A stretch of 20,382 nt of DNA from a virus. This document shows, one piece after another, positions 916 through 19,782 of the stretch. The stretch covers positions 1-20,382 of the IMG/VR virus record IMGVR_UViG_3300027754_000532, one strand, 5' to 3'. A model generated the notes under the pieces. It was given only the letters and a program-made list of their open reading frames with translations. It made no database searches and was not told where the DNA came from. The stretch's first letter is position 1; each line of letters opens with the position of its first letter. Made by a program: the position numbers and the translations under genes.

Positions 916-2844
916 TCACGCAGTTGGATTGTTGTGTGCGCGATTCTGTGCAGCAAATGCATCTGGGTTAAAGCGACCCACTGCCTTGGCATAGCCGGAA
1001 GGGGTAGCCATGACCCATCCTTCTTGTCCAGGATGTTGTGCATCTAACTGTGCACGGATATTCTCTTTGATGTTGTGCAGCAGCAAGAACGCCTGGAATG
1101 CAGCAGCCATGCCCGACAAGTTGCCCGGCTTGCTCTTAAGATAAGTCACAATGTTATTGAACTTCTGCGGAGATACTTTGCTTTGCAGCCACTTGCCAAA
1201 GTCAGCCACTAGTGTCCGAGCATCGGGTAGGGCTTGTCCCACCTTGGTGTTAACAAAGTCCACACAGAGTCTAGCAAGGTCAGTGATCTTGTTTGCTCTC
1301 AAATCATCAGGATTGAACAAGCCTGTGATGTTTGCACCTTGTGTCTTGATAATTTGCTGTAGTGCTGCTGCTGATTTTGAATCCGGGGTGATTTGTTCCG
1401 GGACACTTGTGCCGGGGTCAACCAGCAGCAATCCCTGCACCGGCTTGAATTTGATGTTGCCCAGTGGCTCTCGAGGTGCACCCACATCATCATATCGGGT
1501 GTGCATAGCAACGCCCATCTGACTTTTTGAGATCTTTTGTCCTAATGCGCTATTTGCCGGAATACGGTATGTCACAGTGTTGGGTGTGAATACATAATTA
1601 CCACCTTCGATCGGAGGCTGGCTCATGTACAGCAAGTCTCCCTTGACATAACCACGAAAGTTATCCGGCAGAGCAGCTTCTAGTGCAGGAAACAGCTTGG
1701 CATAGATGTTGATCAGCTCTGTGCGGTCACCTTTGCGCATGTTCTGGATCTGTGCCATCATCTCGGGACTAGTGGCTAAACCATCGTATCCCTTTGCTTC
1801 AAATCCGGATCCGTCTGTGAGCACAAACTCGCCTGTGGCCGGCTTACGGCCAAATATAACAGCCGGTTTGCCGTCCCACTTGACTGTGGTAGTTTTACCC
1901 GGGGCGGCTGCTGCTGCATTGACAATGTCCAGGGCGCGTTGAATGCCCGGTGTTCCAAAACGAAACACATAATCTTCCAGATGCTCAATACCCTTGGCCT
2001 TGCCGCCGATGCCGGCTTCTTCGGCTTCGTTGATTGCAGATTCAATCAAGGGCTGCATGCCCTGCACCATGATCCGGTCACGCAGTCGTGCCATCCAGTC
2101 CACATCTGTGTAGTTAACATTCTCATCTAGCGGAGTGCCGGACTTGAGCATGAACTCACGGAAGTCCGATAACTTGGCATTCTTCTTGGGGTCGTTCTTG
2201 AGTGCAGCAATAATACGCTCTACACTGTACATGTCTTCTGTGGTGGCTTGCGGAGTCAGGAGTATTTTAGCAACAGTTTCGGTATTGTCTCCTCCGGGAA
2301 CCAATTGGTTAGTGGTACGATCTACTAGACCAATGTTGGAGTTGATTTTATATCCCAGGGCCTTGGCCACAGAACTCAGCAAGATGTTTCGACTCATGCC
2401 CTTGTATGCCGACGCCGGATCACTGCTCAAGAAGAACACTGTCCAGGCTGGGTTTGCAGTAAACATAAAGTCTGTTTGTACAAATCCATGACCTGGGTCG
2501 CCATCAATGGCTGTGAAAAAATGCACCGAGATGCCGGTTTTTTTGATGTACTGTTTAGGATCTACACGCTGGGATACGCACCAGGCTTGTAGCTTGGCAG
2601 CAAGCTGCTCTTTGCTGATGTCGGCGTCGTGCACCAGCAGGTCTAGGTCACCCGATGTGGCCTTGCGACCGGTACTGCCCAGCCACTTGGCCGGCTTGCC
2701 GTCTGCAGCTTTGTCTTGTGTAAAATCAACACCTGTGATCTGTTCTAACCACTGCACTGTAGGCATGACATCGGCCTGATTGATACGCTGTGTTAAAATT
2801 GTACCATCGGCACCTTTGAATACGTTTCCACCTTCAGTTAGCAT
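916..2844 (-). CDS. Two-domain nucleotidyltransferase: Pol-beta-like domain plus KxDG ligase-like domain (642 aa)
   Basis: The N-terminal part has a polymerase-beta superfamily signature: G56-S57 followed by GDLDLLV with D66 and D68, and a candidate third metal-binding Asp at D125 (QTDFMF). The second half has K322-W-D-G (a KxDG motif I, the lysine that takes AMP or GMP in ligases and capping enzymes), GYVKGDLLY (398-406, like motif III of RNA ligases), and near the C-terminus EGWVM (608-612) with K620 and R624, resembling motifs IV and V. About 200 residues separate the motif III and IV candidates, longer than in typical ligases. The function could be nucleic-acid end repair or protein nucleotidylylation; neither is proven. 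Start: ATG 2844 with Shine-Dalgarno GAGGAG five bases upstream. It overlaps the upstream 85-aa gene by 11 bases and so shares its late promoter. The motif calls are by eye. Confidence 0.8.
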   Translation of the reverse strand: MLTEGGNVFKGADGTILTQRINQADVMPTVQWLEQITGVDFTQDKAADGKPAKWLGSTGRKATSGDLDLLVHDADISKEQLAAKLQAWCVSQRVDPKQYIKKTGISVHFFTAIDGDPGHGFVQTDFMFTANPAWTVFFLSSDPASAYKGMSRNILLSSVAKALGYKINSNIGLVDRTTNQLVPGGDNTETVAKILLTPQATTEDMYSVERIIAALKNDPKKNAKLSDFREFMLKSGTPLDENVNYTDVDWMARLRDRIMVQGMQPLIESAINEAEEAGIGGKAKGIEHLEDYVFRFGTPGIQRALDIVNAAAAAPGKTTTVKWDGKPAVIFGRKPATGEFVLTDGSGFEAKGYDGLATSPEMMAQIQNMRKGDRTELINIYAKLFPALEAALPDNFRGYVKGDLLYMSQPPIEGGNYVFTPNTVTYRIPANSALGQKISKSQMGVAMHTRYDDVGAPREPLGNIKFKPVQGLLLVDPGTSVPEQITPDSKSAAALQQIIKTQGANITGLFNPDDLRANKITDLARLCVDFVNTKVGQALPDARTLVADFGKWLQSKVSPQKFNNIVTYLKSKPGNLSGMAAAFQAFLLLHNIKENIRAQLDAQHPGQEGWVMATPSGYAKAVGRFNPDAFAAQNRAHNNPTA

Positions 2845-3091
2845 CGGTTCTCCTCATTGTTCGTGTAAATTTACTTTGATCCTTGGTGCGTATTGCATTA
2901 AACAACTTGCGAACCAGATTATCTGCCTGTTCCGGGGTGTAGCTGGACTCAATCTGTTCCACCAGCCGGATGGCACTGGCAATCACATTAGCTGCACGAG
3001 ATTCAATGATGTATCGGCGATCCTGATCAGAATGCTTTTCTTGATACAGCGTGTCTAATTCTTCTAATATGCTGCGTGTCTTTTTTTGCAT
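2834..3091 (-). CDS. Small conserved hypothetical protein (85 aa)
   Basis: This 85-residue, mainly helical, charged protein begins MQKKTRSILEELDTLYQEKH. It has a central SRAANVIASAIRLVEQIE helix and a basic C-terminus (KFTRTMRRTDAN). No catalytic motif is visible. It is the first gene after the late promoter at 3121-3114, and its last codons overlap the start of the large nucleotidyltransferase-like gene, so the two are probably co-translated. No strong Shine-Dalgarno is visible before ATG 3091. It may be a partner or adaptor for the larger protein (inference from coupling only). Confidence 0.75.
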   Translation of the reverse strand: MQKKTRSILEELDTLYQEKHSDQDRRYIIESRAANVIASAIRLVEQIESSYTPEQADNLVRKLFNAIRTKDQSKFTRTMRRTDAN

Positions 3092-3113: not shown

Positions 3114-3121
3114 TATTTATA
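3114..3121 (-). promoter_or_regulatory. T4-type late promoter, TATAAATA
   Basis: An exact TATAAATA octamer on the minus strand lies 23 bases upstream of ATG 3091, in the AT-rich gap before a divergent plus-strand gene. It would drive the 85-aa gene and the overlapping 642-aa gene. Confidence 0.65.
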
Positions 3122-3150: not shown

Positions 3151-4224
3151 ATGATGGATACTTTTTGTGTGTTGCCCTTTTTTAGTTTTGAATTACCACA
3201 GAATAGTGATAAAAATATTTTCTGTTGCCAGTTACCAACTTGGGCAAACATTAATGAAATACGCAACGATATTGTTGCAGGACAACGCAATTCTGCATGT
3301 AGTAGCTGTTGGAAGATGGAAGATCAAAATCTACCCAGCGAGCGGCAATTGCATAATCGAACATTCGATTATTATCGAGATCGAGATATTGAGTTGATCC
3401 AACAAGATGCAGTATCTGGGAATTTTAATGCACAAATTGTAAAACTTGCCACAAGTAATATCTGTAATAGTGCATGCGTGACATGCGGAAGTTTTTCAAG
3501 CTCATTATGGGCTAGTGTGGAAAAATCCAAGCAAAAGTCTTGGCGCATAAATCAGAACACCATCAATGCAATCGAGTGGAAAAATGTTGCACAGTTGAGT
3601 TTTGTAGGAGGAGAGCCATTGCTAGAAAAAGCCAATCTAGACATTCTACAACATCTAATAGATATTGGTAATACAAAATGTTTTGTAAGCATTGTTACCA
3701 ATGGTAGTATTGGTGTATCATCGACTCAATTGAAAATACTATCTAAATTTTCTAATCTTAATATATGTGTAAGCATTGATGGAATAGAGTCGGGATTTGA
3801 GTACGCTAGGTGGCCGTTGCAATGGGAGAAGATACTTGTTAACCTTGATCATCTTAATCAAACTGCAAAGTATGTGAGTATAAGTTGCATGGTTAGCAAC
3901 TTTACTATATCTAGACTAGATGATCTGATTGATTTTTTTAAGTCGCACAATCTACCGTATCTCTGTAAGGCAATCGAAGATCCAAGCTATTTTGCACCAG
4001 GTAATTTGCCCGATAAAGTCAAGCAGTCGATCAAACAGTCACAGTTAAAATATCCCAATGAAGTATTACCGTTTTTGTCTTATGGAAAATATACTGCTGC
4101 TGCATTTAATGACTGTTGGAGAGAGATCTATCGTCAAGACCAACTGAAGAAAATTTCAATTGACAACTACCTTCCCGAGTTTGCTGCTACAAAAATTTAT
4201 TGTACAGATCTGCCAATTCAGTGA
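3151..4224 (+). CDS. Radical SAM protein with N-terminal Cys-rich (twitch-like) region
   Basis: The 357-residue product has the radical SAM cluster motif CxxxCxxC at C105, C109 and C112, followed by GGEP (153-156) and VSIDG, the usual SAM-binding landmarks. Upstream are further cysteines (C6, C25-C26, C50 and C53 in ACSSCW) that could bind an auxiliary Fe-S cluster, as in SPASM/twitch enzymes. The substrate is unknown. It is an isolated plus-strand gene among minus-strand genes and meets a second, related radical SAM gene tail to tail, overlapping it by 38 bases. No Shine-Dalgarno precedes ATG 3151 or the adjacent ATG 3154; TTAAATA ends one base before the start, so a very short or absent leader is possible. 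Such proteins often act on peptides, but nothing here shows a precursor peptide. Confidence 0.85.
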   Translation: MMDTFCVLPFFSFELPQNSDKNIFCCQLPTWANINEIRNDIVAGQRNSACSSCWKMEDQNLPSERQLHNRTFDYYRDRDIELIQQDAVSGNFNAQIVKLATSNICNSACVTCGSFSSSLWASVEKSKQKSWRINQNTINAIEWKNVAQLSFVGGEPLLEKANLDILQHLIDIGNTKCFVSIVTNGSIGVSSTQLKILSKFSNLNICVSIDGIESGFEYARWPLQWEKILVNLDHLNQTAKYVSISCMVSNFTISRLDDLIDFFKSHNLPYLCKAIEDPSYFAPGNLPDKVKQSIKQSQLKYPNEVLPFLSYGKYTAAAFNDCWREIYRQDQLKKISIDNYLPEFAATKIYCTDLPIQ

Positions 4225-5302
4225 ACGTGCTAGAAAACTTTTGATCACGCAGTTGATCAAATTTCTCTATTTCACCAAGCATTAATTTAATAGCTTCTGG
4301 GTTTTCTTTCCAAGTCTCGGGCAAGAGATTTTTAGATGTAGTTTTGGCTATATAATCCATATATGCCCGACTGCAATTTGCAACGTCAAATATACCATTA
4401 GCCATATGTCGTGTGTGATTTACTACATCGCCTTCTCGATTTTGAGTGAAATTTTGTTGAATCCATGCCTCAAGTTCCGAAATGTAATACAGATTAAAAA
4501 TAGATATAGTTTCTTCAATCAAAAACATCACGTTACTTGGCGCGACAGTCCGCAACATCATTATATTGTCGACTACTTGGGACCAACTTGCAGGCCAACG
4601 CAGGTATTCAAATCTTTTCCCAACACCATCAAGACTAATATGTAATTTAACCAAGTGCGCTCGGCCAATGATCGAAAAGTATTTTTCGTCAATTGGTTGA
4701 GTGCCATTGGTCTGAAATGCCAATGTAAGTTGATTTTGTGCATTAGGGACATTTGAAACCAACCAGTCAGCCACTTGCCAATATTCTTGCCCTAGCAGTG
4801 TTTCCCCGCCACAAAACACAACTTGCCGTAAATTTGACAAGTCCAGGTTTGACAATGCCTGTATTACATCTGTCTTGCGTTTGGGAGAAACAACAGGTTG
4901 ATTCCATAATCCATGCGAGCTCAAATGTTTTTGCCAAAAAGTACTATGGGTTACTCCACAAGTTCTGCATGCCAAATTACAACTAATATCAAACATAAGA
5001 TCAATACGGGCTGGCCCTTTAATATCAGTTTGTTGATAAATTTCAAGGCCGTCATTCATTCCTTGCCTCATGCTGCGCATTTGGCTTTGTTCAAGTACTT
5101 GACAGTTTGCGCATCCTGGGTCCCAGACACCTTGGGCATTTTGTTGTCGTAGTGTAGCAAATGAACGATCATTCCAGAAATTTGATCCGATGTCAACTGG
5201 GTGCAAGTTGTCTCTAAGGCAGCAATGTTGGGCCCTGGGTTCTAAGGTTTTAAGATCTAACATCAATCCACCGTGGATCATCGAACAGTATTCATTGTTC
5301 AT
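4187..5302 (-). CDS. Radical SAM protein, second twitch-like copy (371 aa)
   Basis: CxxxCxxC is at C108, C112 and C115 (CNLACRTCG), with GGE at 165-167 and an SLDG segment. N-terminal cysteines C6, C27-C28, C64 and C67 parallel those of the convergent neighbour. Both proteins share the stretch FEY-x-RWP-x-x-W after (I/L)DG, so they are related but well diverged. ATG 5302 overlaps the stop of the gp41-like helicase gene (ATGA), so it is translated from the same minus-strand message, while its relative is transcribed from the other strand. The enzyme class is firm; substrate and role in infection are unknown. Confidence 0.87.
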   Translation of the reverse strand: MNNEYCSMIHGGLMLDLKTLEPRAQHCCLRDNLHPVDIGSNFWNDRSFATLRQQNAQGVWDPGCANCQVLEQSQMRSMRQGMNDGLEIYQQTDIKGPARIDLMFDISCNLACRTCGVTHSTFWQKHLSSHGLWNQPVVSPKRKTDVIQALSNLDLSNLRQVVFCGGETLLGQEYWQVADWLVSNVPNAQNQLTLAFQTNGTQPIDEKYFSIIGRAHLVKLHISLDGVGKRFEYLRWPASWSQVVDNIMMLRTVAPSNVMFLIEETISIFNLYYISELEAWIQQNFTQNREGDVVNHTRHMANGIFDVANCSRAYMDYIAKTTSKNLLPETWKENPEAIKLMLGEIEKFDQLRDQKFSSTFTELADLYNKFL

Positions 5303-18228: not shown

Positions 18229-18978
18229 TTATTTATCCCAACCTCGATTCCAATAATTGACAATAATTTTATCTGTTACTTCATGCGGTTTAGGGCTGCC
18301 GTGAAAAATCATCACACTGGTCTTGGGGTCTAGTACTGTGCCAGTATTGGGTCGGCGATAGGTACGTGTTTTTATATCGAGCCCGCCATCTTTGATTTGC
18401 CAACGCCAGCTTTGTACAGCATCACTATCAAAGAATCTACGGTCTTTAAAGTCAACTGCTACATTTAAAAAATCCTGATCGCCGTGGAATTGATTGGCAG
18501 TGTCAAGAATATTGCGACTCTGAAAGCTGGTCCAGATACGTTTCCACCGTTCTGTGTCCCAGTACATTATGCTGGAGTTTAAGCCGGTCCAGGAGGGTTT
18601 CCAAAGATGTCTAAAGTCCCGTACTGCCCAGAAGTGTCGAGGGCTTAGTCCCCAGATCCAATCAATACTGCCGGTGATCACCACGTCAAGATCCATGTAC
18701 AACAGGTTCCCAGGTACATGAGCCGGATCAAACATCTGCATCTTGTACCACCAGGCCTTTTTTGGACCACTGATACCAGGCCAGTCGACTAAGTCGTGCT
18801 TGATCATCGAGGCCGGCACCGATCTTGAAGGCTCAGTAAACACATGAAACTTTACGTTGTGCTGGGTGTTAACTTGCAGCATATTGTACAAGTTTTCAAC
18901 ATACCGCCAGTCATACATGTTTCCGTGTATCACGCAGGCAAAATTCTTTTGGTCAGCATGATTCTTATGTTTCTTCAT
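18229..18978 (-). CDS. GT-A-fold glycosyltransferase (249 aa)
   Basis: The DxD metal and nucleotide-sugar motif is LLYMDLDVV (D96, D98). It is preceded by KKAWWYKMQMF (73-83), a common helix in such enzymes, and followed near the C-terminus by IFHGSPKPHE, a His segment that often coordinates the metal. It would transfer a sugar from a nucleotide donor to a phage or host acceptor. There is no signal peptide, so it is cytosolic. It is divergent from the nucleotidyltransferase/cupin gene, with 39 bases between the starts. Sugar and acceptor are unknown. Confidence 0.85.
   Translation of the reverse strand: MKKHKNHADQKNFACVIHGNMYDWRYVENLYNMLQVNTQHNVKFHVFTEPSRSVPASMIKHDLVDWPGISGPKKAWWYKMQMFDPAHVPGNLLYMDLDVVITGSIDWIWGLSPRHFWAVRDFRHLWKPSWTGLNSSIMYWDTERWKRIWTSFQSRNILDTANQFHGDQDFLNVAVDFKDRRFFDSDAVQSWRWQIKDGGLDIKTRTYRRPNTGTVLDPKTSVMIFHGSPKPHEVTDKIIVNYWNRGWDK
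18230..18237 (-). promoter_or_regulatory. Candidate late promoter, GATAAATA
   Basis: The minus-strand octamer matches T4 late consensus at 7 of 8 positions and lies 19 bases upstream of ATG 18211, just before the GGAG site. It overlaps the stop codon of the glycosyltransferase gene. Confidence 0.5.
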
Positions 18979-19004
18979 TTTGTATTTACATCAAAAAGTA
19001 CACA

Positions 19005-19012
19005 TATAAATA
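19005..19012 (+). promoter_or_regulatory. T4-type late promoter, TATAAATA
   Basis: An exact plus-strand octamer whose last base is 6 bases before ATG 19018. With the usual spacing, the transcript would start at or near the ATG, giving a leaderless message; no Shine-Dalgarno is present. Confidence 0.6.
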
Positions 19013-19017
19013 GAACA

Positions 19018-19782
19018 ATGAAAACTATCGTTCTTGCAACCGGTGGATTTGATCCCATCCACTCGGGACACATTGCATATCTTAAGGCCGCACGTCAACT
19101 AGGGGACATTCTTGTAGTTGGTGTAAATTCAGATGAGTGGTTAGCTCGCAAAAAGGGACGAGCATTCATGCCAATCTTAGAACGCACTGAGATTGTGCAG
19201 AATATCAAAGGTGTAGATTTTGTAATCACATTTGATGATCGTAACGACAGTGTACGGCATGCCATTGAAATGGTGCGTCAGAGCTATCCACAGGACAAGA
19301 TTATCGTGGCCGATGGTAATCAGCGCACAGACAAAAATATGCCCGAGCTGAGATTAGCAGACACTAATTTAGAATTTAAGTTTAACGTGGGCGGCGTGAT
19401 TGAGAAAAACTCCAGCAGCTGGCTACTGGAAGAGTGGCGTGCTCCCAAAACACGCCGCATGTGGGGACATTATTGTGTAGTTCATGATTCACCCGGAGCC
19501 AAGGTCAAAGAACTCACAGTAGAGCCCGGGGCAGCGTTAAGTATGCAAAGACACCAGGATCGCGCCGAATTCTGGCTTGTGACCAAAGGCGAAGCTAGCG
19601 TATACACGCTTGATGCCAGTACCGATCTAGAACTGCAAGGACGGTATACTCAGCATCAATACTTGCATATTGGACTACACTGTTGGCATCAGTTGGTAAA
19701 CGAAACGTCAAGTCCATTAACTCTGATTGAGATTCAATACGGTAGTCGTTGTACCGAAGAAGATGTAGAAAGAAGACTATGA
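19018..19782 (+). CDS. Cytidylyltransferase/cupin fusion for sugar-nucleotide metabolism (254 aa)
   Basis: The N-terminal half has GGFDPIHSGHIAYLKAA (9-25) with the HxGH motif (H15, H18) of the TagD/RfaE-type nucleotidyltransferases, then VVGVNSDEWLARKKGR. The C-terminal half (from about residue 155) reads WGHYCVVHD and VEPGAALSMQRHQDRAEFWLV, which is the cupin pattern of type II mannose-6-phosphate isomerase (ManC C-terminal region). One protein could thus activate and isomerise a sugar phosphate. ATG 19018 is chosen because earlier in-frame codons run through the opposite-strand glycosyltransferase. Its stop overlaps the next glycosyltransferase start (ATGA), so the two act in one pathway. 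The reaction is inferred from families. Confidence 0.87.
   Translation: MKTIVLATGGFDPIHSGHIAYLKAARQLGDILVVGVNSDEWLARKKGRAFMPILERTEIVQNIKGVDFVITFDDRNDSVRHAIEMVRQSYPQDKIIVADGNQRTDKNMPELRLADTNLEFKFNVGGVIEKNSSSWLLEEWRAPKTRRMWGHYCVVHDSPGAKVKELTVEPGAALSMQRHQDRAEFWLVTKGEASVYTLDASTDLELQGRYTQHQYLHIGLHCWHQLVNETSSPLTLIEIQYGSRCTEEDVERRL

Follow-up and report, generated by a model that had tools for sequence, protein, structure and literature searches.

A phage protein combining a predicted polymerase-beta-type nucleotidyltransferase and a DUF6267 ligase-like domain, a candidate enzyme for the repair of polynucleotide ends

We analysed a 20,382-nt stretch of viral DNA (IMG/VR record IMGVR_UViG_3300027754_000532, positions 1 to 20,382; hereafter the window), part of a tailed-phage genome that encodes a DnaB-like helicase, a primase and a UvsW-type helicase, and focused on a minus-strand gene for a 642-aa protein. 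This protein carries a predicted nucleotidyltransferase (NTase) domain of the DNA polymerase beta (Pol-beta) superfamily at its N-terminus and, beyond a linker, a DUF6267 domain with a predicted ligase fold (Table 1). A preliminary description had proposed such a fusion of a Pol-beta-like NTase and a KxDG ligase-like domain from the sequence; translation placed the protein and all motifs named there on the minus strand, and both folds were recovered by structure prediction and structural comparison. The gene, the two folds, the invariant residues of catalytic type and the recurrent linkage of the domains in phages were all established computationally.

Homologues were collected by an IMG/VR search that gave about 600 matching stretches, 80 of which were retrieved. 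The set of fused sequences comprised the window protein and 78 IMG/VR homologues (n = 79; identity about 94% for the closest homologue and 53-63% for most), and two more distant sets contained 36 DUF6267 members (lowest pairwise identity 19%, 367 columns) and 40 NTase domains, both fused and stand-alone (244 columns). G56, D66, D68, D125, K322, W323, D324, G325, D403, E608, G609, V611 and K620 were invariant in all 79 fused sequences, while residue 57 was Ser in 75 and Thr in 4. The conservation of D66, D68 and K322, on which the preliminary description depended, thus held in the fused set and also in the diverse alignments. The species genomes of bacteria and archaea yielded no relative, PDB sequence searches with the protein and four profiles returned chance matches only, and PHROGs and NCBIfam searches returned no function for the enzyme.

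Table 1 Features of the fused gene and its upstream region (window coordinates).
Feature	Position	Strand	Basis
Whole enzyme gene, 642 aa: NTase domain, disordered linker, DUF6267 ligase-like domain	916..2844	-	Open reading frame translation
NTase domain of the Pol-beta superfamily (predicted), palm and thumb-like parts, residues 5-240	2125..2832	-	Structure comparison
NTase motif GSTGRKATSGDLD, residues 56-68, catalytic Asp candidates D66 and D68	2641..2679	-	Alignment, n = 40
VQTDFMF, residues 122-128, third catalytic Asp candidate D125	2461..2481	-	Alignment, n = 40
Disordered linker between domains, residues 243-284	1993..2118	-	pLDDT < 50 at 243-254 and 256-284
DUF6267 domain, predicted covalent nucleotidyltransferase (ligase) fold, residues 285-638	931..1992	-	Pfam and structure comparison
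GIEHLED, residues 285-291, family-wide motif ahead of ligase motif I	1972..1992	-	E287, H288, E290, D291 invariant in DUF6267 alignment
Ligase motif I, KWDG (K322-W-D324-G325), nucleophile candidate K322	1870..1881	-	K, D, G invariant also in 36 diverse members
Motif III candidate, GDLL (G402-D403-L-L)	1630..1641	-	D403 invariant in DUF6267
PNTVTY, residues 421-426, PN..Y motif common to DUF6267 and split-type ligases	1567..1584	-	Alignment and hhalign
Helical insert between motifs III and IV, residues 489-603	1036..1380	-	Six predicted helices
Motif IV, EGWV, E608-V611	1012..1023	-	E, G, V invariant
Motif V, YAKAV, K620	979..993	-	K620 invariant
85-aa gene upstream of the enzyme gene, phrog_11854 (virion structural)	2834..3091	-	PHROGs E 1.3e-13
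T4-late-promoter-like TATAAATA ahead of the two-gene unit	3114..3121	-	

The full-length protein was modelled with AlphaFold2 at a mean predicted local distance difference test score (pLDDT) of 83.5. The NTase domain of this model aligned with Pol beta, lambda and mu at VIA-align Z scores of 9.5-10.1 over about 160 residues (root-mean-square deviation 3.3-4.1 Å); family X polymerase (Pol X) chains took up the whole list obtained with the full model, and its ranking is silent on other Pol-beta-superfamily subfamilies. Foldseek gave the domain a probability of 1.00 with weak E-values. The motif layout G56-S57...S64-G65-D66-L67-D68 was verified by translation, and G56, G59, D66 and D68 as well as V122, Q123, D125 and F128 were invariant in the 40 diverse NTase members. 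G56, D66, D68 and D125 account for four of only 10 invariant columns among the 244 (P 1.5e-6). Membership in the Pol-beta superfamily is therefore supported by a GS motif, a DxD pair, a third Asp and a predicted palm fold, all of which are present. At the level of sequence families, Pfam DNA_pol_B_palm (PF14792) matched one of the 40 members at E 0.0017 and the thumb family (PF14791) reached E 0.2, both below threshold, and the window protein itself matched neither. Since no Pfam, PHROGs or NCBIfam family was found above threshold, the domain seems to represent a phage family not described before. The profile of the RNA-ligase-associated RlaP NTases (PF10127) gave no match at E up to 10 among either 16 or 40 NTases, and PF10127 was likewise absent from the eight records of the fused lineage searched, some of them fragments. 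Structural comparison did not find an 8-kDa lyase domain in the NTase half, and there is no room for one because most rows align from Pol beta residue 139 onwards and the NTase domain itself starts near residue 5 of the protein.

The C-terminal half is a member of Pfam DUF6267 (PF19782; residues 285-624, 108.8 bits against a cut-off of 27, E 5.2e-31) and of phrog_455, known as T4-GC 71 in cyanophage S-PM2. The fused protein is matched by 333 phage records, mostly of cyanophages, and a full-text literature search found no paper naming DUF6267. Modelled alone, the domain reached a pLDDT of 88.5 and a predicted template modelling score of 0.83, and the 50 best VIA rows for this model were all ligases, at moderate Z scores (6.3-8.9 over 162-200 residues). 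The highest scores belonged to Naegleria gruberi RNA ligase (8.2-8.9), followed by T4 Rnl1 (7.6) and T4 Rnl2 (6.9), while human DNA ligase 1 scored 6.8, fungal tRNA ligase 6.6, and DNA ligases as a whole 6.8 or less. All eight ligase positions tested fell among the only 27 invariant columns of the 367 in the 36 DUF6267 members (hypergeometric P 3e-10), so that conservation of the motif residues in these alignments is far beyond chance. By motif order, K322, D324, D403, E608 and K620 correspond to K170, D172, E227, E312 and K326, the residues mutated according to the PDB titles of the Naegleria enzyme. DUF6267 thus bears the marks of the ligase superfamily, namely KxDG, an acidic motif III, EG, the Lys of motif V and a predicted nucleotidyltransferase fold, and it shares this fold and motifs I, III, IV and V with the Naegleria ligase, Rnl1 and Rnl2. 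It differs from these three in its motif III Asp, a Glu in most ligases, in an insert of about 115 residues between motifs III and IV, and in the lack of an OB or Rnl-specific C-terminal domain. The insert explains a gap of about 200 residues that had been remarked on as unusual: D403 and E608 lie 205 residues apart, compared to 85 for the equivalent pair in the Naegleria ligase, and the insert is found throughout DUF6267. Only 22 residues follow K620, and no OB domain lies downstream of motif V; no separate search was made for an OB fold in its other parts.

The two domains were found together repeatedly. A query with the NTase alone returned 80 loci (46 after dereplication), and NTase and ligase were fused or encoded by overlapping or adjacent genes in 24 of the 46: nine were fused with DUF6267, one was fused with the ligase first, and 14 lay beside a ligase gene. 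Two further loci had a ligase at a distance of 1.0-1.6 kb and 20 had none nearby. In the reverse-order fusion (L362 2168-4849, also L363), a protein of 894 aa starts with a diverged ligase and ends with the Pol-beta-type NTase. In the jumbo phages Atu_ph07 and Phosso, the NTase has a gene of its own, which follows the primase and helicase genes and overlaps the end of a ligase-like gene, and locus L167 is arranged alike. Homology with DUF6267 is evident for the ligases of these split pairs, which hhalign aligned with it over 287 columns at a probability of 97.5 and E 7e-12 (at most 2.3 for unrelated controls); they keep the same invariant set of KxDG, E, EGxV, K and PN residues. P421, N422 and Y426 are invariant in DUF6267, as are P105 and N106 in the split-type ligases, whose motif III residue is Glu (E98). 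The ligases that accompany the NTase at L362 and L406 have counterparts of GIEHLED (GITHIED and GITHVED). Six of 10 partner ligases also gave weak matches to Pfam RNA_ligase (PF09414; E 0.001-0.008, below the cut-off), and the split-pair ligases, being homologous to DUF6267, thereby tie this family to RNA ligases as an intermediate. One could suppose that two unrelated functions, for example those of two late or virion-associated genes, were fused by chance and share no pathway. The 20 loci without a nearby ligase suggest that the NTase can work alone, and the fused gene is flanked by structural-like genes, which would be in keeping with this. However, both fusion orders, two diverged ligase families and the overlapping gene pairs of jumbo phages are hard to explain in this way, and we regard a chance fusion as very improbable.

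We propose instead that a single polypeptide with two nucleotidyl-transfer sites repairs broken polynucleotide ends by an add-then-seal reaction, with RNA as the more likely substrate, and we give this reading a probability of roughly 45%. D66, D68 and D125 of the NTase domain would bind two metals and extend a 3' end by one or a few nucleotides; the DUF6267 domain would then form lysyl-AMP at K322, activate a 5'-phosphate and seal the strand. The chemistry at each site and this order of action are what we infer from the domains. The substrate may be RNA such as a tRNA cut in host defence, and the protein would be a fused counterpart to the pairs of RlaP NTase and RNA ligase in phages, in which the NTase has been proposed to restore lost nucleotides ahead of ligation (PMC7824862). 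Here as there, a phage NTase of the Pol-beta superfamily is associated with a KxDG ligase; the differences are that the NTase here does not belong to PF10127, that the ligase belongs to DUF6267 and that both form one protein. We lean slightly towards RNA rather than DNA, as the ligase half is nearest to RNA ligases, motif V is not followed by an OB domain, and a separate T4-like DNA ligase is encoded in four genomes of the fused lineage. For these four genomes, the idea that the fused protein is the only DNA ligase of the phage was rejected. The content of tRNA genes favours neither RNA nor DNA because the lineage includes tRNA-rich and tRNA-free records (23-33 tRNAs in three records, none in three others); none was found in the window.

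Several observations weigh against this proposal. The Foldseek E-value of the DUF6267 domain is weak (0.09), so that its assignment as a ligase depends on fold and invariant motif residues pointing the same way. In sequence comparisons, no match of DUF6267 to known ligases passes the threshold: its members did not reach the cut-offs of Rnl1 (PF09511) or Rnl2 (PF09414), with a single match to PF09511 at E 0.017, and profile-profile comparisons with Rnl1, Rnl2 and T4-like DNA ligase sets gave no match, although these were underpowered at 2-4 sequences per set. The NTase domain is structurally nearest to family X DNA polymerases, the genes adjoin those for primase and replicative helicase, and PgVPolX, the Pol-beta/ligase fusion that has been characterised, acts in DNA repair (PMC5537341). 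Atu_ph07 (L333, L344, L346) carries Rnl1, an Rnl2-like ligase and RlaP in addition to its split NTase/ligase pair; these enzymes are probably not redundant, because one phage carries all of them. Finally, the late-promoter-like signal described below does not suggest an early anti-defence role.

An alternative explanation is that the protein repairs DNA, as a minimal PolX-like gap filler joined to a nick-sealing DNA ligase, acting in base excision repair like PgVPolX or in end joining like LigD and perhaps mending the genome before packaging. The best matches of the NTase half to Pol beta, lambda and mu, which include the thumb-like part, the subthreshold palm and thumb matches among its members, the replication genes nearby, the late-promoter-like signal and the precedent of PgVPolX are all consistent with this. 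PgVPolX, from Phaeocystis globosa virus, is a viral Pol-beta/ligase fusion for which polymerisation and ligation are proven; it has 1093 aa, an 8-kDa lyase domain and a LigA-type NAD+-dependent DNA ligase (PMC5537341). By contrast, the phage enzyme has 642 aa, lacks an 8-kDa lyase domain and a LigA-type ligase, and carries an RNA-ligase-like domain. The absence of both the 8-kDa and the OB domain, the closeness of the ligase half to RNA ligases and the T4-like DNA ligase that these genomes encode separately argue against DNA repair, which we nonetheless regard as a serious rival, somewhat less probable than the RNA reading. The kind of enzyme is already known; judging by the literature and libraries consulted, novelty lies in the families, in their phage setting and in how they are combined.

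DUF6267 also occurs with another type of partner. In cyanophages, DUF6267 members lack a Pol-beta domain and stand alone or with a C-terminal HIGH-type NTase, whereas the fused enzyme has an N-terminal Pol-beta NTase. There, the DUF6267 gene overlaps, abuts or is fused to a gene for a CTP_transf_like (HIGH) nucleotidyltransferase; a HIGH NTase gene was present at 74 of 79 and 56 of 79 DUF6267 loci of two sets, usually overlapping or abutting, and was fused in one more. Such a fusion also exists in S-PM2, and phrog_455 covers both DUF6267 and the HIGH NTase. A regular-expression search for HIGH NTases found none in the fused lineage. Examples of the HIGH-type partner (L083 4968-6730, L169 3974-5749 and L171 3977-6258) display the nicotinamide mononucleotide (NMN)-adenylyltransferase-like motifs GRFQPPTTGH and ISGTKMR. 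These partners would fit a role outside polynucleotide repair, in which the two sites modify a protein or a small molecule, either by nucleotidylylation or by making or using a nucleotide cofactor. The invariance of ligase motifs I, III, IV and V makes such a role improbable, and to our knowledge Pol-beta-type AMPylators of proteins or small molecules need no partner ligase, which also counts against it. Another conceivable but unlikely view is that DUF6267 and its relatives form a separate phage ligase superfamily into which lineages plug unrelated NTase partners, serving an undescribed late two-step pathway of end chemistry on phage nucleic acid. Under the end-repair reading, DUF6267, which is present in hundreds of sequenced phages, gains an activity that can be tested site by site; the repeated fusion and pairing suggest a compact fill-and-seal enzyme for one-tube assays that might serve as a tool enzyme.

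The gene upstream of the enzyme gene is kept in the fused lineage, and its end shares 11 nt with the enzyme gene start. About 23 nt upstream of this gene lies TATAAATA, of which the window contains four exact copies compared to 0.68 expected from shuffling. Relatives have a TAAATAA-type box at the promoter position, with the variants CTAAATAAT and TAAATAAAT; an exactly conserved TATAAATA as the late promoter was rejected, as relatives keep the TAAATAA-type variant instead. The preliminary description had called the protein late-expressed, and the promoter-like signal makes this plausible, with late expression itself inferred from the upstream motif.

Some neighbouring genes were also recorded. 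A stand-alone NTase gene closely follows a HAD/NT5C-like nucleotidase gene at five loci (L361 2615-3583, L370 3420-3986, L386, L395 and L396), the two genes abutting or overlapping at some of them, and a Macro-domain gene (PF01661; L402 2929-3381) lies shortly upstream of another stand-alone NTase. Both the HAD/NT5C-like phosphatase and the Macro-domain classes are listed in connection with phage RNA repair (PMC7824862), which also speaks for the proposed end-repair function. Within the window, two convergent radical-SAM genes (3151-4224, plus strand; 4187-5302, minus strand) share 38 bases at their 3' ends, and a plus-strand gene at 18844-19782 encodes a fusion of CTP_transf_like and mannose-6-phosphate isomerase/cupin domains.
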